Shown here piece after piece: positions 17,861-60,603 of a stretch of DNA of 64,000 nt. Both the position numbers and the translations under genes were made by a program. This DNA is from Deltaproteobacteria bacterium (GTDB lineage Bacteria; Desulfobacterota; Desulfarculia; Adiutricales; Adiutricaceae): contig JAITII010000048.1 in NCBI GenBank assembly GCA_031279515.1, positions 1 to 64,000 on the forward strand, read 5' to 3'. Positions within the stretch are counted from its first letter, which is position 1. Each line of letters starts with the position of its first letter. Under the pieces are notes generated by a model, which worked only from the letters and a program-made list of their open reading frames with translations, was not told where the DNA came from and did not search any database.

Positions 17861-19186
17861 ATGGACCCTATTATACTCTCCAGGTTGCAGTTTGCCCTGG
17901 CTACGATAGTCCATTTTTTCTTTGTTCCCCTGACCATTGGTCTGAGTTTGTTTATAGCCATCATGGAAACCCGGTATGTTAGAACCGGGGATGAAAAGTT
18001 TAAAATTCAGGCTAAATTTTGGGGAAAGATTTTTCTCATCAACTTTGTTTTGGGGGTAGTGACGGGTATTGCCCTAGAGTTCCAATTCGGAACCAACTGG
18101 GCCTTGTACTCCAAGTATGTCGGGGATATTTTCGGGTCATTACTGGCAATAGAAGCCACCCTGGCCTTCTTTTTGGAGTCCACCTTTATCGCCGTCTGGG
18201 CCTTCGGCTGGGAAAAGATACCTAAAAAACTCCACTGTGCCGCCATCTGGCTTGTATTTTTTGCCGGGACTATCTCGGCGCTCTGGATCTTATTGGCAAA
18301 TGGGTTCATGCAGCACCCTGTAGGTTATGAGCACGTTGGAGACCGCTATATCCTGAAATCCTTTACGGAAGTGCTCACCAATACCTACGGCTGGCATATG
18401 TACCTCCACACGGTATGTGGTGCCTTTCTCTTGACCGGATTTCTGGTCATGGGGATCTCGGCCTGGCATCTTTATTTTGGCCAGAACAAGGAGTTTTTCC
18501 ACGCCTCCTTTAAGCTGGCCTCCTGCTTTGCCCTCTGTTTTTCCATCTTATCAGTCATCGTGGGCCATCAGTTGGGCCAGGTGACGGCTAAGTATCAGCC
18601 ATCCAAATTGGCTGCCATGGAGTCCGTCTGGGTGACGGAAGAAAACTCACCTATGTACCTTATTGTTATCCCCAAGTTCACCAGTGAAGAGGGGAACCTG
18701 GTGCAGGCATTGCCACTCCCTGGCGTCCTTAGCTTTCTGACCACTAACAGCTTTTCCCAGACTGTAACCGGCATGGATCAGATAAAACCTGATGAGAGGC
18801 CTTTGGTCTGGCCGGTCTTTTACTCTTTTAGGATCATGGCCACCTTAGGGTTCCTCTTTTTAGCCGTGGCTGTGGTAACAATCTTTTTAAGGAGGATTGT
18901 ACCCACCTTGGGGTGGGGTCTTTGGGTGTATATCTTACTCATTCCCCTCCCGTATATCACTATGCAGCTGGGCTGGATAGTGACGGAAATGGGTAGGCAG
19001 CCCTGGATAGTGTATAAGCTACTTAAGACCGCAGACGCTGGAAGTCCCCCTGTGGATTGGTATCAGGTGCTCATAACCCTTCTGGTTATGGCAGCTATTT
19101 ACGCCCTCATTTCTATAACCGGTTTTGTCATGATGATCCGTACGGCCTTAAAGGGCCCCCAGGACATGACTGAACATTACGCATAA
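17861..19186 (+). CDS. cydA: Cytochrome bd ubiquinol oxidase subunit I
   Basis: 441 residues, polytopic inner-membrane protein carrying the haem groups and quinol site of cytochrome bd, which reduces O2 to water. The ATG has GGAGG upstream. Haem ligand candidates are His18 in ATIVHFFFVPL and His183 in MYLHTVCGAF; the later methionine ligand and the TEMGRQPWIVYKLLKT segment are conserved. The length indicates the short Q-loop form rather than the E. coli long form. It forms a tight operon with cydB (18 bp gap). In an otherwise anaerobic gene set the likely role is oxygen scavenging. No cydC, cydD or cydX is seen nearby. Confidence 0.96.
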   Translation: MDPIILSRLQFALATIVHFFFVPLTIGLSLFIAIMETRYVRTGDEKFKIQAKFWGKIFLINFVLGVVTGIALEFQFGTNWALYSKYVGDIFGSLLAIEATLAFFLESTFIAVWAFGWEKIPKKLHCAAIWLVFFAGTISALWILLANGFMQHPVGYEHVGDRYILKSFTEVLTNTYGWHMYLHTVCGAFLLTGFLVMGISAWHLYFGQNKEFFHASFKLASCFALCFSILSVIVGHQLGQVTAKYQPSKLAAMESVWVTEENSPMYLIVIPKFTSEEGNLVQALPLPGVLSFLTTNSFSQTVTGMDQIKPDERPLVWPVFYSFRIMATLGFLFLAVAVVTIFLRRIVPTLGWGLWVYILLIPLPYITMQLGWIVTEMGRQPWIVYKLLKTADAGSPPVDWYQVLITLLVMAAIYALISITGFVMMIRTALKGPQDMTEHYA

Positions 19187-19204
19187 AGCCCAAGGAGGCA
19201 AATC

Positions 19205-20257
19205 ATGGAATGGTTACTAGATGTCTGGTTCGTTCTCTGGGGAGTTCTCTGGGGCGTATACTTTTTACTGGATGGGTACGATTTCGGCATATCCATGTGG
19301 TTACCCCTCCTGGGGGCAGGCAGCGAAAGGGAAAGGACGGCCATGTACCAGGCCACAGGTCCTTTTTGGGATGGTAACGAGGTCTGGCTCATAACCGCTG
19401 GTGGCGTTACCTTCGCCGCATTTCCCCTGGCTTATGCGGTCCTCTTCTCCAGTCTATATACCCCGCTCCTCATCTTGCTTTTCTGTCTCATCCTGCGGGG
19501 CGTTGTCTACGAGCTCCGTTTCCAGGTGTTTAACCGCTGGTATCGGCTCATTTGCGATGGGATTAGCTTTTTGGCCAGTTTGGTAGCTGCCCTTCTCTTG
19601 GGCGTAGCTTTCTCCAACCTCTTCAGGGGCCTTCCCATACAGCTCCAGGACGTACAAGGAGCCGGTCAGTTTTACATGTATCAGGGGAACATCTTAAATC
19701 TCCTGCATCCCTACTGCCTCTTAGGCGGGGTGGTCTTCATACTGCTGTTTTTAGTCCATGGGGCGCTGTATCTTTCCTGGCGCGTGGAAAAGAGCGAGCT
19801 AAAAAACAAGGCTTTTTATATGGCCAAGATAACCTGGCCCCTCTTTTTGATAGCCTTTTTAGTTTACGTAGCCTTCACCTTCCTCTGGGCCTTTGCCCCA
19901 TTTTTGGAGGGAAATTACCTCAAAGTTCCTATTCTCTTTGCCCTTCCGGCCCTGTGCGCTGTCCTCTTCCTTTTAAGCGGCTATTATATCTACTTTAAAA
20001 ATAGCCCCGGAAGGGCGGTCCTGGCCTCCTGCGGTGGGATCCTAACCTTCACCCTCACCGGAGTCATGGGTATGTACCCCAATCTCATACCCTCCAGGAT
20101 AGATCCCGCATCAAATCTCACTATCCAAGCAGGGGCTTCCACCATACCTACCCTTACCATCATGTTTTGCGTAGCTGGTGTTATGGTGCCCGTGGTCATC
20201 ATCTATCAGATCTGGGCCCACAAGAAGCTTTCCTGGGAGGTCAAGGCGGATTATTAA
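19205..20257 (+). CDS. cydB: Cytochrome bd ubiquinol oxidase subunit II
   Basis: 350 residues with about eight membrane helices; it completes the cytochrome bd heterodimer. The N-terminus WFVLWGVLWGVYFLLDGYDFG is the family hallmark (with the conserved LDGYDFG), and GPFWDGNEVWLITAGG follows at about residue 50. AAGGAGG precedes the ATG. It is translated directly after cydA and followed by a strong stem-loop about 40 bp downstream that closes the operon. Confidence 0.96.
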   Translation: MEWLLDVWFVLWGVLWGVYFLLDGYDFGISMWLPLLGAGSERERTAMYQATGPFWDGNEVWLITAGGVTFAAFPLAYAVLFSSLYTPLLILLFCLILRGVVYELRFQVFNRWYRLICDGISFLASLVAALLLGVAFSNLFRGLPIQLQDVQGAGQFYMYQGNILNLLHPYCLLGGVVFILLFLVHGALYLSWRVEKSELKNKAFYMAKITWPLFLIAFLVYVAFTFLWAFAPFLEGNYLKVPILFALPALCAVLFLLSGYYIYFKNSPGRAVLASCGGILTFTLTGVMGMYPNLIPSRIDPASNLTIQAGASTIPTLTIMFCVAGVMVPVVIIYQIWAHKKLSWEVKADY

Positions 20258-20331: not shown

Positions 20332-21250
20332 TTATGCTAGTGACACTTAACAAGGGGCGCCAGACTTGCATCATAGCTAGAAGCCAGAATAAGTAATTGG
20401 AGAGCGTTTTATCGCGGTGGTCAAAGAGTTGGCAAATAAAATAATTACCTTTTAAGCAATGTAAATGTATTCTTTACGGTTTTTAAAAAGATGAGCAAGT
20501 TTTAACCCATGGAATGGCATATAAAAACGGCCACCTTTTATCTGGCACTATAAGGCCTCTGGGAGATACTAAAAATTCTCTCTTATCAAAAGCAGAAATG
20601 AATTTTAAAATTTTAAGATAGAATATGATAGTCTTTATAAACCGTAAAAAACCTTAGCTATATGTGTACTACAAACAAAAGAAATTTTCTAGTATCCGTT
20701 ATTTACTATTTTAGCCAAGGTAATAATATCCAGAGATTACAAATAGCTCTCAAAAAAACCTTAAGCGCGGGTTTTAAGAGGGCGAGCCAAAAAAGCAAAC
20801 TGTTTAATTAGCATTTTTATATTATTATATAAAAATCATGTAATTAATCAAGGGTAATGGGTAAGAGAAAGTCATTTTGCTAATTTTATCACCTAAGGCC
20901 GTCAACATCTAAAGTTTTTAATGAGCTAGTTAGTAAATGGGCGATAGATACTAAGCTAAAAATAATTTTGACTATCAACTATAAAGCTTAGGCAAAGTAA
21001 TCATGGATATTTAGGCTAATTTTCTTTAAAGAGGCAGTGCTATTTACCTGCCCAGAGCTATAGGAAGGGTTTTCCCTTGTGCTAATCTTAAAGTAGGACA
21101 AAAATGAGCCTATTTCCTTCGCTTTAAGGTTACTTAAAAAAATTTTTTGAGGTTTTTTTTAAACCCTAACCTTTTATGCTAAAATTGGTTTACAATAGAT
21201 TTTGAAGATTATGGTCCAAGCAAGTTAAATTAAGCCAAAAGGTGAAAAAT
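20332..21250. other. Intergenic AT-rich region; its 3' part is duplicated upstream of the next gene
   Basis: No gene seen. From about 20877 the sequence (TTGCTAATTTTATCACCT) reappears at 21797 upstream of the second CAP gene, with further shared stretches (gagctagttagtaaatg versus gaactagctactaaatg). This shows that the duplication included the leader DNA. Confidence 0.7.
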
Positions 21251-21769
21251 ATGACACAGCGGGAGCTAAATGGTCTTTTTCTTATTGTCCTTGTGGGTTT
21301 ATTGTGTTATGGAGTTATAAGTTTTAATGCCTTAAGTCTTTGGGCGCAGAGCACTAAGCGCAGTCCCCAGCCGGTCTTAACTAGCGAACAATTATTAGAA
21401 GAGCGGCGGAAAGTAAACTCTATAGTGAACGAGGAAAGAGAGAAAAATAGATTAGCCCCTCTTTCCTGGGACGATACCTTAGCGGCGGCGGCCCAAAAGC
21501 GCGCAGAAGAGTTAGGAATTCTCTTTGACCATAACCGGCCACAGGGAGGTGATTTTTCTAGCATCTTTGACGAGTATGGAATAAATACCAACGCCGCAGC
21601 TGAAAACATAGCCAATGGCCAGATAAGTGCCAGCCAAGCGATGGCTTCCTGGATGAGCTCAGATGGGCACAGGAGAAATATCTTAAATAGTAGCTATCGT
21701 CGTATGGGGGTGGGCGCGGCTTACGGCCCCAATGGCAGACTCAACTGGGTCCAGCTTTTCATCAAGTGA
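21251..21769 (+). CDS. CAP/SCP (PR-1-like) domain protein, copy 1
   Basis: 172 residues from ATG 21251 (AAGGTG just upstream; the GTG at 21242 is less likely). An N-terminal helix (LFLIVLVGLLCYGVISFNAL) anchors or exports it, followed by one CAP domain (about 50-170). The fold's motifs are intact: VNEEREKNRLAPLSWDDTL, DHNRP, AAENIANGQ, SSDGHRRNIL and GVGAAYGPNGRLNWVQLF. Conserved CAP residues here are the Glu of AEN and the His of GHR. Bacterial CAP proteins act outside the cytoplasm with mostly unknown biochemistry. It is followed by a divergent tandem duplicate. Confidence 0.85.
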   Translation: MTQRELNGLFLIVLVGLLCYGVISFNALSLWAQSTKRSPQPVLTSEQLLEERRKVNSIVNEEREKNRLAPLSWDDTLAAAAQKRAEELGILFDHNRPQGGDFSSIFDEYGINTNAAAENIANGQISASQAMASWMSSDGHRRNILNSSYRRMGVGAAYGPNGRLNWVQLFIK

Positions 21770-21796
21770 TCTTTAGCTAAAGCCTATCTTTGCCTA

Positions 21797-22059
21797 TTGC
21801 TAATTTTATCACCTACATTTTCAATATCTGGTGGTGCTGGTGAACTAGCTACTAAATGAGGGATAGATGCTAAAACAATGTTTTTCAGTATCAAGCAATA
21901 ATTTTTATCCTAAGTTATCTTAGATCTCTAAGGTAAATAATTTCGTTTTAAGCTTAGTTAAAAATTTTTTTGGGATTTTTTAAAAGCCTACCCCCCTTTA
22001 TCCTATGATGATGTTACAATTGGTCCATGTAAATTTAATTCTGCCAAAAGGAGAAGATT
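21797..22059. repeat. Duplicated leader region of the CAP gene pair
   Basis: Begins with 18 bases identical to 20877-20894 (TTGCTAATTTTATCACCT) and keeps recognisable similarity through a T-rich run to a TTACAAT element shortly before the gene. It is about 110 bp shorter than the first copy. Spacing to the start codon and the AAGG(A/T)G site are preserved in both copies. Confidence 0.75.
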
Positions 22060-22581
22060 ATGACAAAACGTGAGTTAAATGGTTTTTTTCTTATTACCTT
22101 TATGGGTTTATTTTGTTTTGGAGTTATTACTTTTAATGCGTTGGGCCTTTGGGCCCAGACTGCAGAAGAGAGTCCACAGCCGGTCTTATCTAGCGAACAA
22201 TTATTAGAAGAGCGGCGCAAATTAAGCTCTCTGGTGAACGAGGAAAGAAGGAAAAAAGGCTTAGCACCTCTTGCCTGGGACGATACGGTAGCAGACGCGG
22301 CACAAGTGCGCGCAGAAGAGCTAGGTACCCAGTTTCTCCATTACCGGCCTAAGGGGAGAGGTTCTTTTCTTAGTGTCCTTGAAGAGTTCGGAATAGAAAC
22401 AAGTGCCGCGGGTGAACTCTTATCCCAGGGCCATATAAATGCCCAGGGCGTGATGGAGGAATGGATGAGCTCGGAGCCAGACAGAGACACTATTTTAAGT
22501 GAACGCCATGAACGCATAGGGGTGGGCGCTTCTTACGGCCCCGATGGGAATCTCAACTGGGAAATGCTTTTCGTTAATTGA
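22060..22581 (+). CDS. CAP/SCP domain protein, copy 2, with degenerate motifs
   Basis: 173 residues, ATG after AAAAGGAG. It is clearly a duplicate of the preceding gene: the same anchor (FFLITFMGLFCFGVITFNALG) and the shared stretch SSEQLLEERRKL, close to copy 1's TSEQLLEERRKV. The CAP core has decayed: AAENIANGQ has become AAGELLSQGH and SSDGHRRNIL has become SSEPDRDTIL, so the conserved Glu position is disturbed and the GHR histidine is gone. The hydrophobic frame and C-terminal GVGASYGPDGNLNWEMLF remain. Either it has a new, non-catalytic role or it is drifting toward loss. The reading frame is intact. Confidence 0.8.
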   Translation: MTKRELNGFFLITFMGLFCFGVITFNALGLWAQTAEESPQPVLSSEQLLEERRKLSSLVNEERRKKGLAPLAWDDTVADAAQVRAEELGTQFLHYRPKGRGSFLSVLEEFGIETSAAGELLSQGHINAQGVMEEWMSSEPDRDTILSERHERIGVGASYGPDGNLNWEMLFVN

Positions 22582-22807: not shown

Positions 22808-24034
22808 TTATGAGGCCCGGGTAATATTTTTAAAGACCGGGTCTATGCGCAAGGGCCCAAAGTCCGGAGCTATGGAATAGTTCCATTCGCCGTGGAATTC
22901 TGCTGGATAGATTACCACCGCCTTTAACTCTTCCTCGGTAGGTGCCAGGGGGGTAGAAAAATGCGTGTGATCTAGCTTTAAGCCCAAGGCCATGGTGCGC
23001 ACCTGGTCATTGTGGCTTACCAGGCGGACGGTAACCTCGTGATCCCTTGTGGGCTCTTCAGCATAGCCCGTGGACACAAAGGAGAAGAGCCTTTGGCTAT
23101 TGGCGTTCCACTTGCTGGTGCCCGGAGGGTAGCGGCAGAACTCTATGGGAAGCCCTATGGAATTGGAGAGCTTTTGGAGCTCGGTCTTCCACAGGGAGTG
23201 GCGGCGCAAACCTCCCACATTGTCGGCTGTGAGCATGAGGCAGCTGGCCTCAGGAAAGAGTTCCTTGCCTTCCACCATCCACCAACCGTAGATGGAATCA
23301 GAGGTAAAGGAGGCGCTTTCATAGGAGGACCTCAAGCAGGCGGATTGACGGGCCAGCTTGGGGTCATAGATACCCCTGGGGTGCTGTCCAGCAACTAAGC
23401 TGTCAAGTCCTAAGTTAATGTTAGCTATGAAGGTGGTCTCATGGGTCTCTTCTTCGATGGTGGCTTCCTTTTTACGGGATTCCACCGAGATTATGGGTTG
23501 GTTTTCCGCCATGTGAAAGGAGACCCTGTGGCTGATGTGCCTAAATTGGGAATCCCTGTCGGGGTGGATCCGACCCTCTTCGGTCTTGCGGGTGCCCATG
23601 AGGTTGTAGCCGTTTTTGCGGAGGATTTGGGCCACCTTTTCGTGACTTATCCTGTGATGGGCTGCGGTGAGCTCCTGGGCCAGGTAGCGGGTACTCTTGC
23701 AGGTCCAAAGAATTGGAGGATCGTTTTCTCCTTTGGTGGTTTCCCGCATGAGTTCCTCTAAAGAGGCCCAGATGCCCGGGTCCACGCGCTCAACCCGGGG
23801 CCTTCCGGCCCCGGCTCGGCGAGTTTTACCGGGCTCCAAGGGGGCTTCATCCAATTCCTTGATACCCTTGGTGATGGTAACCCTAGATAGGCCGCAAGCT
23901 CTGCTCACCATGGAAATACCGCGCCGTCCAATACGCTTGGCTTCGCCTGCAGCCACCAGGCGGCGTTCCCGCTCGCCAAGGTGAGGCCAGACATTTAAGA
24001 ACATTTTGGTTAAGGCAGATTCTGTTTCGATCAT
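22808..24034 (-). CDS. ISAzo13-type transposase with substituted catalytic residues
   Basis: 408 residues from ATG 24034 (the track start at 24076 is a TTG). The whole protein follows the ISAzo13 (Rhodopirellula DDE) plan: an N-terminal HTH region (ISMVSRACGLSRVTITKGI), LWTCKSTRYLAQEL, RKTEEGRIHPDRDSQFRHI, QPIISVESRKKE, LMLTADNVGG and PPGTSKWNANSQRLFSF. The usual family wording is SVDTKKKE, ITADGGGSNG and TSKWNKIEHRLFSF. Here the first Asp has become Glu and the final Glu (IEH) has become Ser (NSQ), while the middle Asp is kept. The ORF is full length, so it is either newly dead or kept for another role. No terminal inverted repeats were identified. Confidence 0.82.
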   Translation of the reverse strand: MIETESALTKMFLNVWPHLGERERRLVAAGEAKRIGRRGISMVSRACGLSRVTITKGIKELDEAPLEPGKTRRAGAGRPRVERVDPGIWASLEELMRETTKGENDPPILWTCKSTRYLAQELTAAHHRISHEKVAQILRKNGYNLMGTRKTEEGRIHPDRDSQFRHISHRVSFHMAENQPIISVESRKKEATIEEETHETTFIANINLGLDSLVAGQHPRGIYDPKLARQSACLRSSYESASFTSDSIYGWWMVEGKELFPEASCLMLTADNVGGLRRHSLWKTELQKLSNSIGLPIEFCRYPPGTSKWNANSQRLFSFVSTGYAEEPTRDHEVTVRLVSHNDQVRTMALGLKLDHTHFSTPLAPTEEELKAVVIYPAEFHGEWNYSIAPDFGPLRIDPVFKNITRAS

Positions 24035-24207
24035 GGTAAATTTCCGCTTACAGTAATTGGTGTATTTTGTTTCCAATAAACCCTGGCTAGAGGACTTTAA
24101 GGAGGGGCTAAGGGCCCAGAGGAGTATTTAAAATAATAGCATAGATAGACACCGGGATAAATTAACCTAAATTTTAAATTGCCCCTTAAAGTCCTTAGTT
24201 AGCCTTT

Positions 24208-25069: not shown

Positions 25070-25113
25070 CAAAAAAGCGCACTGGCGGGCGAGGGGGACC
25101 CTGGCCCGCCAGT
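25070..25113 (-). terminator. Intrinsic terminator of the 56-aa protein transcript
   Basis: Read on the reverse strand, ACTGGCGGGC pairs perfectly with GCCCGCCAGT across a 13-nt loop (forward 25081-25113). It is followed by GCGC and then TTTTTT (forward AAAAAA at 25071-25076). Confidence 0.8.
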
Positions 25114-25134
25114 ACGGTTAGAATTTTTTTAGCT

Positions 25135-25161
25135 GCCCCAAGCCCTAGGTGGGCTTGGGGC
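25135..25161. other. Strong GC-rich stem-loop
   Basis: GCCCCAAGCCC and GGGCTTGGGGC form a perfect 11-bp stem with loop TAGGT. It lies between the 56-aa gene and the terminator at 25070-25113. It has no adjoining T-run on either strand in the right position, so it is probably a 3'-UTR structure (processing or stabilising), not a terminator itself. Confidence 0.7.
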
Positions 25162-25251
25162 TTTCCGGCGATCCCGCGCGGGCCAAATTTGCGGCTTTTA
25201 AGCCAATAAAAAACTCCAGGCAGCTGGTGGGTAGCTGGGGGGCAGCAAGTC

Positions 25252-25422
25252 TTAGCCGAATATTAAGTTAAAGAGCAGGACTATTAGCCAGATTGGCCAA
25301 AAGATAGCCCAAATGATTCCGGGCTTAAAAAACACGTAAACTAAAATCGCTACGATAATGTACCCAAAGCTCGTCATGAATGCCAGGATGGACTTGCCTT
25401 CCCTGTTTTTGAAAAACGACAT
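25252..25422 (-). CDS. 56-aa two-helix membrane protein (absent from ORF track)
   Basis: Manual translation gives a 56-codon ORF from ATG 25422 to TAA at 25252: MSFFKNREGK at the N-terminus, then two hydrophobic segments (YIIVAILVYVFF and the Trp-rich IIWAIFWPIWLIVLLFNLIF) split by KPG. GAGGTG lies seven bases before the ATG. A 3' stem-loop and a terminator follow about 90-180 bp downstream, so the unit looks like a complete small gene. A short basic N-terminus and a helical hairpin suggest an inner-membrane protein with both ends in the cytoplasm. I do not recognise the family; small stress or accessory membrane proteins look like this. Confidence 0.7.
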   Translation of the reverse strand: MSFFKNREGKSILAFMTSFGYIIVAILVYVFFKPGIIWAIFWPIWLIVLLFNLIFG

Positions 25423-25854
25423 GGCCTTTCACCTCTTGGATTTGTGTGTCGGGTTATTTTAGGTTGATAATTTGGGCCAAAAAAACCTAAAGAAAGTTCC
25501 TAAAACACCTTAGGTGACCGGCTCGCCCCCCAAAGGTACGAAAATAAGGGAATTTTCAGCCTTTTCAAACTTAGCACACTTGGAGGGGCCTGTCAGCCGC
25601 TTTCACAAAAAATAGTCTAACTATTTGGCGTAAATAGTGGGTAATTGGGCTTACTACCAATAGGTTGTATAGTCACTTCTGAAGAGCCACTAGAATAGCT
25701 AAAAAATGGAAAAATAGAGAGTAAGGGCACAGAAGTCCCCTTGGAAATAGGGCACCTTGGATTTAAAGTTTTTTAGTATCTGTTAAAGATTAAAGCGCAG
25801 GTAATTTTTTAAGATTTTTTGAAACTGGGGTTTAGGGGCAGCTAATCTTATAAG
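25423..25854. other. Intergenic region, no gene seen
   Basis: AT-rich DNA between modB and the 56-aa gene. It should hold the promoter of the latter, but no convincing -35/-10 pair was found. No modC fragment is visible. Confidence 0.5.
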
Positions 25855-26559
25855 CTATTCCTTGGGATTTCGAATGGCCTTGGAAGAAGAGGGGCGGCGG
25901 GGATTTAAAAATTGCACCAGAACCATGGTAACAACAGCAAAGGCCATGAGGATCCCAGAAAGCACATGGGCGCTTGCAGTGCGTCCCATTTCTACATAAA
26001 CATAGATCTGCATGGAAAGAACCCTAGTAACGTCGGGAATATTACCTCCTATCATAAGGACAACGCCAAACTCCCCTAGGGTATGGGAAAAGGCCATGAT
26101 AGCGGCGGTTAAAAAGGCAGGTCGCGCCTGGGGCAAAATGACAGTAAAAAAAGCATATGTAGGACTTGCGCCAAGGGTTTTGGCTGCCTCTAAAGGCAGT
26201 TCCCCTAAGGCTTCGAAGGCGTTTTGCAGGGGCTGGACCACAAAAGGTAAAGATGAGATGACAGAGGCAAAGACAAGGCCGCCAAAGGTGAAGGGCAAAA
26301 GTCGTAGGCCAAAATAATCAAAGAGCTGCCCTACAGGGCCACGGGGACCCAAAAAGACTAAAAGGTAAAAACCTAAGACCGTGGGCGGAAGGACTAAGGG
26401 CATCGTAGCAATAGCACCTATAATGCGTCTGAATAGTCCTTGCCCACGGGAAAGCCACCAGGCCAGAGGGGATCCAATGGCAAGGGTAAGAATTGTAGCC
26501 ACCATTCCTAATTTGAGGGAAATGGTCATGGCGGTAAAATCAGCTGAAGATAAAATCAT
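25855..26559 (-). CDS. modB: Molybdate ABC transporter permease
   Basis: 234 residues with about five membrane helices. The cytoplasmic EAA loop reads LEAAKTLGASPTYAFFTVILPQA, the contact point for an ATPase; SHTLGEFGVVLMIGGNIP is typical of ModB. AAAGGG precedes the ATG closely. It is encoded 60 bp after modA on the same strand. It imports molybdate (or tungstate) together with ModA and an ATPase, but the expected modC gene is absent downstream, where a long gap begins, so an ATPase encoded elsewhere must be assumed. Confidence 0.92.
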   Translation of the reverse strand: MILSSADFTAMTISLKLGMVATILTLAIGSPLAWWLSRGQGLFRRIIGAIATMPLVLPPTVLGFYLLVFLGPRGPVGQLFDYFGLRLLPFTFGGLVFASVISSLPFVVQPLQNAFEALGELPLEAAKTLGASPTYAFFTVILPQARPAFLTAAIMAFSHTLGEFGVVLMIGGNIPDVTRVLSMQIYVYVEMGRTASAHVLSGILMAFAVVTMVLVQFLNPRRPSSSKAIRNPKE

Positions 26560-56440: not shown

Positions 56441-58180
56441 TTAGGTGTAAAGGTCCATGTGGGGATTGTGATAAGTTGTGTGTAAGAGCTTATGGGAGAG
56501 CTCTCCTCCGGGTTTTTGGAGGTAATTTTTGTACAAGGCCTGGACCTCGGGGTTCTCGTGGCTCTTGCGGAGGCTAAGATGGCGGTCGTCGTCGTAGAGA
56601 CCTCTGATGCGCTTGGCCCTGTAGTTGATGTCGCTTGTGATGGGCTGTCCGCCACCAGAGATGCAGCCGCCAGGGCAGGCCATGACCTCTATGAAGTGCC
56701 ATTTGCGCGGATTTCCGGCCTTAATTAACTCCATAACTTGGCGGGCATTACCTAGACCGTGGGCTATGGCTACCTTTATCTTGGTGCCATCTAAATCTAT
56801 CTCCGCCTCCCTTAAGCCTCCCAAGCCGCGGATTTGGGTAAATTCTACGGCAGGTAAGGTCTTCTTGGTGACAACCTCATAGGCGGTGCGCAGAGCCGCT
56901 TCCATGACGCCTCCGGTGTTGCCGAAGATGGTGGCAGCACCAGTCCCTATGCCCATGACCGGGTCATAGGGGAGGGGTTTCAATCCTTCAAAGTCAACCC
57001 CACAGCTCTTTAGGAGCTTACCCAGTTCCCTGGTGGTCAAGACTATGTCCACATCCTGGAAGCCGCTGGCGTGCATTTCCGGGCGGGTGCACTCGAATTT
57101 CTTGGCTGTGCAGGGCATGATGGACACAGACACTATCTTGGCGGGGTCTATCTTTTCCAGTTCCGCATAGTAGGTCTTTACCAGGGCGCCGAAGATCTGC
57201 TGAGGGCTCTTGCAGGAGGAGTGGTGTTCCACCAGCTCCGGATAGAACATCTCCATGAAGTTTATCCAGCCTGGGGAGCAGGAGGTTATCATGGGCATGT
57301 GTTTGTTGGCTTCCAGGCGATGGAGGAATTCTGTGGCTTCCTCCATGATGGTGACATCGGCAGTGAAGTTGGTGTCTAAGACCTTATCAAAGCCCAGGCG
57401 CTTTAAGCCTGCCACCATCTTGCCCGTGACTATGGAGCCCGGGGCTTCGCCGAACATCTCGCCTAGAGCCACCCTCACAGAGGGTGCGGTCTGAACAATC
57501 ACCACCTTTTCGGGGTCGTCTATGGCATTTAAGACCAGTTCGGTGTCGTCTTTTACTGTGATGGCACCCACCGGACAGATGACTGAGCACTGTCCGCAAA
57601 GGGTGCAGGCCACTTCCCTTAGGCCCTTGCCAAAGGCAGGGGTCACGATGGAGCTGTAGCCGCGGTTGGCGAAGGTGTAGACCGCGCAGGTCTGCTTGTC
57701 ACTACAGAAGCGGACGCAGCGGCCACAGAGGACGCACTTGTTGGGGTCACGCACCAGGGAAGGGGAAGTGTTGTCGATTTCCCAGGTGGGTTTGGCCTTT
57801 TCAAAGCGGATCTCTTTTACTCCGAGGTCCAAGGCCAGTTTCTGCAGTTCACAGTTTTGGTTGCGGTCACAGGTGAGGCATTCGTGGGGGTGGTTGGCCA
57901 AAAGGAGTTCCACCACCAGGCGACGGGCCTCGCGGACCTTAGGGGAATTAGTAAGCACTACCAAACCGTCAGTCACCGGGAAGGAGCAGGCGGCGGCCAA
58001 GGCCCTGCCGCCTACCACCTCGACCACGCAGACGCGGCACCCGCTGTAGGGTTTAACGTCAAAGTGGTGGCATAAGGTGGGGATATTGATGCCCAGTTTG
58101 CGGGCAGCCCCCCAGATGGTGACGCCGGCCGGCACGGTAACAGTCTGGTTATCGATGGTCAGAGTTACGTTTTTACTCAT
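56441..58180 (-). CDS. hydA: NADH-linked [FeFe] hydrogenase catalytic subunit
   Basis: 579 residues, cytoplasmic. Interconverts H2 with protons at the H-cluster. N-terminal [2Fe-2S] domain (about 1-75, CHHFDVKPYSGCRVC), a His-ligated [4Fe-4S] site (HPHECLTCDRNQNCE), two [4Fe-4S] motifs (CVLCGRCVRFC, CTLCGQCSVICPVG), then the H domain with L1 TSCSPGW (about 305), L2 MPCTAKKFE and L3 FIEVMACPGGCISGGGQP. L1 has Ser where many monomeric enzymes have a second Cys; I recall this form in NADH-linked members. The small-subunit-like helix is fused at the C-terminus, followed by a short extension. With HydB and HydC it likely forms the electron-bifurcating type that couples H2 to NADH and ferredoxin. 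Nine bases separate it from hydB. Confidence 0.95.
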   Translation of the reverse strand: MSKNVTLTIDNQTVTVPAGVTIWGAARKLGINIPTLCHHFDVKPYSGCRVCVVEVVGGRALAAACSFPVTDGLVVLTNSPKVREARRLVVELLLANHPHECLTCDRNQNCELQKLALDLGVKEIRFEKAKPTWEIDNTSPSLVRDPNKCVLCGRCVRFCSDKQTCAVYTFANRGYSSIVTPAFGKGLREVACTLCGQCSVICPVGAITVKDDTELVLNAIDDPEKVVIVQTAPSVRVALGEMFGEAPGSIVTGKMVAGLKRLGFDKVLDTNFTADVTIMEEATEFLHRLEANKHMPMITSCSPGWINFMEMFYPELVEHHSSCKSPQQIFGALVKTYYAELEKIDPAKIVSVSIMPCTAKKFECTRPEMHASGFQDVDIVLTTRELGKLLKSCGVDFEGLKPLPYDPVMGIGTGAATIFGNTGGVMEAALRTAYEVVTKKTLPAVEFTQIRGLGGLREAEIDLDGTKIKVAIAHGLGNARQVMELIKAGNPRKWHFIEVMACPGGCISGGGQPITSDINYRAKRIRGLYDDDRHLSLRKSHENPEVQALYKNYLQKPGGELSHKLLHTTYHNPHMDLYT

Positions 58181-58189
58181 GGGGGTACC

Positions 58190-60100
58190 TTACTTCCTGG
58201 ATATAGCTTTTTGCTTTTTGCAAGCGTCTATGCAAGAACCGCATTTGATGCATTTCCTGACGTCGATGACATGGGGTTCTTTCTTGTTGCCGTCGATGGC
58301 ATCCGCCGGGCAGACCTTTTTGCAGGCGCCGCAGCCGATGCATTTTTCCGTGTCGATCCAATAGGTCAAGAGGTCCACACACTGGCCGGCAGGGCACTTC
58401 TTTTGGAAGATATGGGCCTCATATTCGTGGCGGAAATACCTAATGGTGGACAGAATGGGGTTGGGGCAGGTCTGTCCCAAACCGCAGAGGGCCGACAGCT
58501 TGATGTTACGGGCGAGTTCTTCTAAGAGCTCTATGTCGCCAGGGAGTCCCTTACCCTGGGTGATGTTATTTAAGATGTTGAGCATGCGGGTGGAACCCTC
58601 ACGGCAGGGGGTGCACTTGCCGCAGCTCTCATCGCGGGTGAAGGACAAGAAGAAGCGGGCTAGGTCCACCATGCAGGTGTCCTCGTCCACCACCACGAGT
58701 CCTCCGGAACCCATCATGGCGCCGGCCTCTATTAAAGAGTCGTAGTCAACGGGTCTGTCTATCATGGATTCAGGTAAGCAGCCCCCGGAAGGTCCACCTA
58801 TCTGGACGGCTTTGAACTTCTTGTCGTTCTGGATGCCTCCGCCGATATTGAAGATGATCTCCCGCATGGTGATGCCCATGGGGACCTCAGCTAGGCCTGT
58901 ATTGCGGATCTTGCCAGTTAAGGCAAAGACCTTGGTGCCTTTGGAGTTGGCAGTTCCGTAAGAGGCGTACCAGTCGCCGCCATTGCGGATGATGCCGGGG
59001 ATATTGGCCCAGGTCTCAACATTATTATTGTTGGTGGGTTTCCCCCAGAGTCCGCTGATGGCAGGGAAGGGCGGGCGAGCGGTGGGCATGCCGCGTTTGC
59101 CTTCTATGGAGTGGATGAGTGCGGTTTCTTCACCGCACACAAAGGCGCCTGCTCCCTCTTTGATGTGCAGGTGGAAGCTCCAGCCAGAACCTAAGATGTT
59201 ATCACCCAAGAGGCCTAAGGTCTCAGCCTGGGCGATGGCATTGTTAAGGCGCCTAATGGCTAGGGGGTATTCAGCGCGGCAGTAGATATAACCCTCGTCT
59301 GCCCCTATGACTAGGCCGCCAATGATCATGCCTTCTAAGAGCCTGTGGGGATCGCCTTCCATCATGGAGCGGTCCATAAAGGCCCCTGGGTCACCTTCGT
59401 CGGCATTACAAATTATGTACTTTTTATCACCCGGGGCATTGCGGCAGAGATCCCACTTGCGACCGGTGGGGAAGCCGCCGCCGCCACGGCCGCGGAGGCC
59501 TGACTTTTTTACCTCTTCCAAGAGGGCATCGGTATTGTCCTTCATGGTAAGGGCCTTGGCCAGGGCCTTGTACCCGTCATTGGCGATGTATTCCATCACG
59601 TCTTCGGGGTTGATGTGGCCGCAGTTGGTCAAAAGGATACGGTTTTGCTTCGCGTAAAACTCTATCTCCTTGTAGTTGACTATGGGCTTTAAGGTCTCGC
59701 GGTCCTGGTAGAGCAGGCGCTCTACGGCATTGCCGTTTTTAATAGTTTCGTCGACTATCTCGGGGATATCGTCCGGGGTGAGGTGGACATAATAGATATC
59801 ATTGGGGTAAACAACGATAAGAGGTCCCATCTCGCAGAAGCCGTGGCATCCAATGATGACCACTTCCACTGACTTGTCTAGACCCTTGGCTTTTAGATCC
59901 TTTTCAAAGGCATCCACTATTTTTCTGGAACCTGAGGAGGTACAGCCAGTATCGCAGCAGATCATTATATTATGCGTTACGCCCTCATAGGGTTTGGCAT
60001 TCGGATCCTTGCGTACTTGAAGTCTAGGGAGGACCTTGTTTTTCAGAACGTCCAGGTCAGCTGCGGACGTGAGGCGCGAAAGAGTTTCGGTGCGTGTCAT
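58190..60100 (-). CDS. hydB: Hydrogenase diaphorase subunit, NuoF-like
   Basis: 636 residues. An N-terminal thioredoxin-like [2Fe-2S] domain (about 45-125, ICCDTGCTSSGS and GCHGFCEMGP), a NuoF core with NAD and FMN sites (SGLRGRGGGGFPTGRKW, CNADEGDPGAFMDRS, GAGAFVCGEETALIHSIEG), the N3-type [4Fe-4S] motif ESCGKCTPCREG, and a C-terminal two-cluster ferredoxin domain (CIGCGACKKVCP, CIKCGSCIDACKK). This is the HydB/HndC architecture. It exchanges electrons with NAD(H) and probably ferredoxin through one flavin. GAGGG precedes the ATG. Confidence 0.95.
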   Translation of the reverse strand: MTRTETLSRLTSAADLDVLKNKVLPRLQVRKDPNAKPYEGVTHNIMICCDTGCTSSGSRKIVDAFEKDLKAKGLDKSVEVVIIGCHGFCEMGPLIVVYPNDIYYVHLTPDDIPEIVDETIKNGNAVERLLYQDRETLKPIVNYKEIEFYAKQNRILLTNCGHINPEDVMEYIANDGYKALAKALTMKDNTDALLEEVKKSGLRGRGGGGFPTGRKWDLCRNAPGDKKYIICNADEGDPGAFMDRSMMEGDPHRLLEGMIIGGLVIGADEGYIYCRAEYPLAIRRLNNAIAQAETLGLLGDNILGSGWSFHLHIKEGAGAFVCGEETALIHSIEGKRGMPTARPPFPAISGLWGKPTNNNNVETWANIPGIIRNGGDWYASYGTANSKGTKVFALTGKIRNTGLAEVPMGITMREIIFNIGGGIQNDKKFKAVQIGGPSGGCLPESMIDRPVDYDSLIEAGAMMGSGGLVVVDEDTCMVDLARFFLSFTRDESCGKCTPCREGSTRMLNILNNITQGKGLPGDIELLEELARNIKLSALCGLGQTCPNPILSTIRYFRHEYEAHIFQKKCPAGQCVDLLTYWIDTEKCIGCGACKKVCPADAIDGNKKEPHVIDVRKCIKCGSCIDACKKQKAISRK

Positions 60101-60117
60101 GTATATTGTCCCTCGGC

Positions 60118-60603
60118 TTAGTTGGAGTAAGAATCCAAGATTTTAGAGATGCGATCAGGTCTTAGGCGACCATGGGCGTCAGTATCCACCATCATGACCG
60201 GAGCTAGGCTACAGGCCCCGATGCAGGCTACTGTCTCTAAGGTGAATTTAAGGTCTTCCGTGGTACCACCGGGCTTTACGCCCAGCGTGGTCTTTAGGGT
60301 TTCCAGTATGCGGGCGGAATTGCGGACATGACAAGCGGTACCCTGGCAGGAACGGATGATATGCTTGCCCCTAGGGGTGAGCCTGAATTGAGCATAAAAA
60401 GTGACCACTCCGTATATCTGGCTGATTGGAGTTTTAAGATGCCTGGCTATGGCCTCTAATGCCTTGAAGGGTAGATACCCATAGGTGTCCTGGGCCGCCT
60501 GAAGCACGGGGATCAGGGAGCCTTTGGTAACATCTACGAACTTCTCGAAAACGGGCTCCAATTTTGTCAGGTCAACGGTTTGACCGGGTGAGGTACTTCC
60601 CAT
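60118..60603 (-). CDS. hydC: Hydrogenase [2Fe-2S] subunit, NuoE-like
   Basis: 161 residues. Helical N-terminus (VLQAAQDTYGYLPFKALEAIA, PISQIYGVVTFYAQF) and a thioredoxin-like [2Fe-2S] domain with ligands in CQGTACHV and CIGACSLAP. AAGGAG lies upstream of the ATG. First gene of hydCBA; 17 bp separate it from hydB. No HndB-like extra [2Fe-2S] subunit is present, so the enzyme is the trimeric rather than the tetrameric Hnd form. Upstream, CCAATATT occurs twice (60779 and 60808, 29 bp apart), a possible paired regulator site. Confidence 0.94.
   Translation of the reverse strand: MGSTSPGQTVDLTKLEPVFEKFVDVTKGSLIPVLQAAQDTYGYLPFKALEAIARHLKTPISQIYGVVTFYAQFRLTPRGKHIIRSCQGTACHVRNSARILETLKTTLGVKPGGTTEDLKFTLETVACIGACSLAPVMMVDTDAHGRLRPDRISKILDSYSN

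Follow-up and report, generated by a model that had tools for sequence, protein, structure and literature searches.

The small gene and its signals

On the minus strand of the window (the whole stretch of 64,000 nt analysed here), a frame of 56 codons runs from an ATG start at 25422 to 25252 and encodes the product MSFFKNREGKSILAFMTSFGYIIVAILVYVFFKPGIIWAIFWPIWLIVLLFNLIFG. It had been proposed as an unannotated gene with a good ribosome-binding site, and both parts of this proposal held, with AAGAGGTG located 7 nt upstream of the ATG. In the two orthologs described below, GAGAGGAG and AAGAGGTG occupy the corresponding place. The features of the locus are listed here in the direction of transcription.

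25568..25596, minus strand: putative promoter, CTGACA-17 nt-TAAGTT with an upstream TG (extended -10), from a three-way alignment
25550..25591, minus strand: conserved 42-nt upstream block with the -10 region and the presumed transcription start (blastn 85.7% over 42 nt against ortholog genome G002; three-way alignment)
25430..25437, minus strand: ribosome-binding site AAGAGGTG, read directly, 7 nt 5' of the ATG
25252..25422, minus strand: gene for a 56-aa two-helix membrane protein (orthologs at 84% and 54%, codon-position bias, dN/dS, AlphaFold helices)
25135..25161, minus strand: perfect 11-bp hairpin in the 3' UTR (dG -25.7, z -4.1 against shuffled sequence)
25071..25116, minus strand: intrinsic terminator, a GC-rich hairpin (25116-25078) followed by T6 (25076-25071) (z -4.9)

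Two helices (residues 3-31 and 34-55) were predicted by AlphaFold for the 56-aa protein, with a mean pLDDT of 78 and a pTM of only 0.35. Both are hydrophobic, in agreement with the earlier description of a two-helix membrane protein, and the combination of a selected short frame with transmembrane helices places the product among the small (≤60 aa) membrane proteins. The N-terminus is short and basic (KNREGK); helix 1 and helix 2 are joined by a tight F-K-P-G turn, and helix 2 bears an aromatic segment (WAIxWPIWL) containing all three Trp. An N-in/C-in topology is predicted according to the positive-inside rule. The term Trp-rich, used for this protein before, overstates a mild content (3 of 56 residues), but all three Trp are invariant among the three known copies.

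Downstream of the stop codon, the previously reported 11-bp hairpin and intrinsic terminator were both recovered (z -4.1 and -4.9), and the two hairpins taken as one stretch gave a z of -6.4. Neither was listed by a simple consensus scanner; the likely reasons are internal mismatches in the terminator stem and, for the 11-bp hairpin, the lack of a T-run. The hairpins have no second copy in the genome, which rules out a genomic repeat. An Rfam search returned chance-level matches only.

The conserved upstream block is absent from the description in the earlier note, which gave the extent as 25070-25422; the gene and the 3' hairpins lie inside that interval, but the unit reaches upstream to about 25596. 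Outside 25591-25550 the upstream regions of the copies have diverged, and the block is recognisable in the more distant ortholog (genome G012) too. Common to the three blocks is the motif TGnTARRTT, placed 17 nt 3' of CTGACA, TTGTGA or TTGCCA (TTGTGA-17-TAGATT in G002 and TTGCCA-17-TAGATT in G012), from which we infer an extended -10 promoter with a transcription start about 140 nt 5' of the ATG. The site in G012 was listed independently by a consensus promoter scanner; the window's own site fell below the threshold of the scanner, and its -10 hexamer has only three of six consensus matches, so the strength of the promoter is uncertain. The block was rejected as a genome-wide regulon motif, since sites with at most two mismatches numbered 19 against 17 in a reversed-pattern control, and the stretch that contains the sole one-mismatch site has no long frame.

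Elsewhere in the window, genes reading as cytochrome bd oxidase subunits I and II (17861-20257, plus strand) were observed, together with a tandem pair of similar CAP-domain (SCP-like) secreted proteins that apparently arose by duplication (21242-22581, plus strand; PF00188 for the second). A three-gene cluster (56441-60603, minus strand) encodes an [FeFe] hydrogenase large subunit (PF02906) and NuoE/NuoF-like partners, and reads as an NAD(P)-linked type that may be electron-bifurcating.

Conservation, selection and genomic place

A frame of 56 codons is by itself little proof of a gene, and conservation was the decisive test. A search of 60 genomes for homologs of the 56-residue sequence, as had been suggested, found orthologs in G002 (84% identity) and G012 (54% identity), both from one further genus within the family that includes the window's genome (G000). 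In the three-copy alignment 28 of 56 residues are invariant, all three Trp included, and the stop position and length of the frame are kept. Nucleotide differences between G000 and G002 at codon positions 1, 2 and 3 were 8, 5 and 24 (chi-square p 0.0002), corresponding to a dN of 0.11, a dS of 1.5 and a dN/dS of about 0.08; the values for flavodoxin in the same pair were close (dN 0.14, dS 1.0). Between G000 and G012 the differences were 25, 10 and 32 (p 0.003), a bias that is present but weaker, and the G012 copy is far more diverged than other G012 genes, indicating that constraint there is partial. The third-position bias, the low dN/dS and the kept stop and length, drawn from three sequences only, indicate that the frame 25422-25252 is a genuine coding gene under purifying selection. 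An unconserved frame without synonymous bias in relatives, the outcome named beforehand as speaking against the gene, was not what the comparison returned.

In G000 the neighbours of the small gene are flavodoxin and modB, whereas in G002 and G012 they are a CoA-enzyme-activase gene (1475 residues; BcrAD_BadFG and DUF2229 domains) and mraZ, which opens the division cluster. The activase-mraZ junction of G000 (L038 2391-3660, about 1.3 kb) is located elsewhere in the genome, without the small gene, and modB was not beside flavodoxin in any other flavodoxin locus fetched with 1.5 kb flanks. The different neighbours indicate that the unit moved or was separately acquired with its promoter-like block kept, and they argue against an obligate partner encoded next door. 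The synonymous divergence of the small gene is as deep as that of flavodoxin, and a recent horizontal exchange between G000 and G002 was rejected for that reason. Just beyond flavodoxin, an ISAzo13-type DDE transposase gene (PF07592, E 9e-67) occupies 22811-24037 on the minus strand, and is a possible agent of the move or of local rearrangement.

The stop codon is followed by a hairpin in all three copies (z -4.1 for the G012 stretch), with hairpin sequences that are not conserved and a T-tract that is interrupted in G002. This gives comparative support to a single-gene unit, and the presence of the promoter-like block and the post-stop hairpin in two different neighbourhoods is consistent with the independent transcription unit put forward in the earlier note, as far as the DNA itself can indicate.

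No homolog was found in the 34 other genomes of the family, many of them incomplete, indicating that the protein is not essential for the family. The remainder of the class (63 genomes searched), phages, plasmids and viral contigs likewise yielded no homolog, and a phylum sample of 395 genomes gave weak partial matches only. A profile search of the frames in 55 loci around activase and flavodoxin genes recovered only the three known copies. Matches in Pfam, NCBIfam and PHROGs were all below threshold: Phage_holin_2 (PF23778) at 15.8-16.1 bits against a gathering cutoff of 32, LiaF-TM (PF22570) at 18.8 bits against 27 with one member only (G002), and the ComI competence inhibitor (NF052249) at 17.6 bits against a curated cutoff of 55. 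Among solved structures there was no match by sequence or fold, and the single viral fold match had an E of 8.5. The family appears to be undescribed in the libraries searched.

Proposed role and alternatives

The small gene is read here, with a probability of roughly 0.6, as a single-gene transcription unit with its own promoter-like block, ribosome-binding site and 3' hairpins, encoding a 56-aa integral inner-membrane protein that forms a helical hairpin and modulates either the envelope or a partner in the membrane. Transcription would start about 140 nt before the ATG and end at the unit's own terminator, and the protein would insert in the inner membrane as a helical hairpin. Its invariant aromatic/Pro segment could pack against the lipid bilayer or a larger partner in the membrane, and the protein would in this way have a modulating effect in the cell envelope, a role suggested by what is generally known of small proteins. 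Read most economically, the product is probably a lineage-restricted inner-membrane small protein that binds a membrane partner or the bilayer. A broader version is considered improbable: a new family of small membrane proteins, specific to this bacterial family, that moves among intergenic sites with promoter, gene and terminator together as one complete cassette, and whose mechanism of envelope modulation is unlike that of any described small protein.

The two helices with their invariant aromatic segment would also suit a protein that serves one particular larger membrane complex as an accessory subunit, in the way that CydX serves cytochrome bd, but is encoded apart from it, and cydAB-like genes are present in the window at a distance of 5 kb; however, the neighbourhood is not kept in relatives and the protein is absent from the other family genomes, which leaves this reading rather unlikely. 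Identity with cydX itself was rejected, as the gene is 5 kb from cydB on the opposite strand; no obvious cydX frame was seen directly 3' of the second cytochrome bd gene.

We judge it unlikely that the gene encodes a type I toxin-like protein resembling TimP, TisB or Hok, kept in check by an antisense RNA that acts on a long 5' UTR. In size and hydrophobicity the protein comes close to the type I toxins, of which most in E. coli have 18-51 aa (PMC7667032), and the putative 5' UTR of about 140 nt, the solitary unit of variable location and the patchy distribution point the same way. However, the opposite strand upstream contains no segment complementary to the 5' UTR (no direct repeat of at least 12 nt in 25423-25860), and a scan for consensus sites gave no antisense promoter close to the gene. 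A cis-antisense RNA that overlaps completely and starts from a non-consensus promoter would escape both of these scans. Folding of the 5' UTR was no more stable than that of shuffled sequence (z of 0.5 and 1.6 for two copies and -1.2 for the remaining one), and the plasmid, phage and viral collections that were searched contain no copy. A holin-like phage remnant, suggested by the weak Phage_holin_2 match (E 0.014-0.017, under the gathering score), is very improbable and largely refuted, given the lack of phage genes among the neighbours and of relatives in phages or viral contigs, the unit's own promoter-like block and terminator, and purifying selection on the frame.

Significance and relation to known systems

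What began as a sighting in a single genome is now a gene under selection whose transcription unit has comparative support, and annotation of these genomes should include it. The small gene is real but ordinary in kind, and its wider importance is limited because small membrane proteins that are lineage-restricted and lack annotation exist in very large numbers. A modest addition is that the whole unit changed its genomic location with the promoter-like block retained.

Residues 19-60 of the G002 protein align to positions 47-93 of the 98 in PF22570, the transmembrane domain of LiaF-type envelope-stress proteins (E 0.003), but the window and G012 copies have no reported match and the protein lacks a soluble domain; the match could be due to hydrophobic composition. 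With TimP-TimR and other type I toxins (PMC7667032) the unit shares a small hydrophobic membrane protein, a solitary setting and a putative long 5' UTR, but it has two helices where TimP has an uncleaved signal sequence, and no upstream antisense complementarity or consensus antisense promoter was found. In the GMSC catalog, more than half of the small-protein families with at least three members are genus-specific, and about 8% of families have a Pfam domain, leaving roughly 92% without one (PMC11364881). The protein described here resembles the genus-restricted families of that catalog in its length (<100 aa), narrow distribution and lack of a Pfam match (PMC11364881); unlike them, it spans two genera and is accompanied by comparative evidence for a promoter and a terminator.
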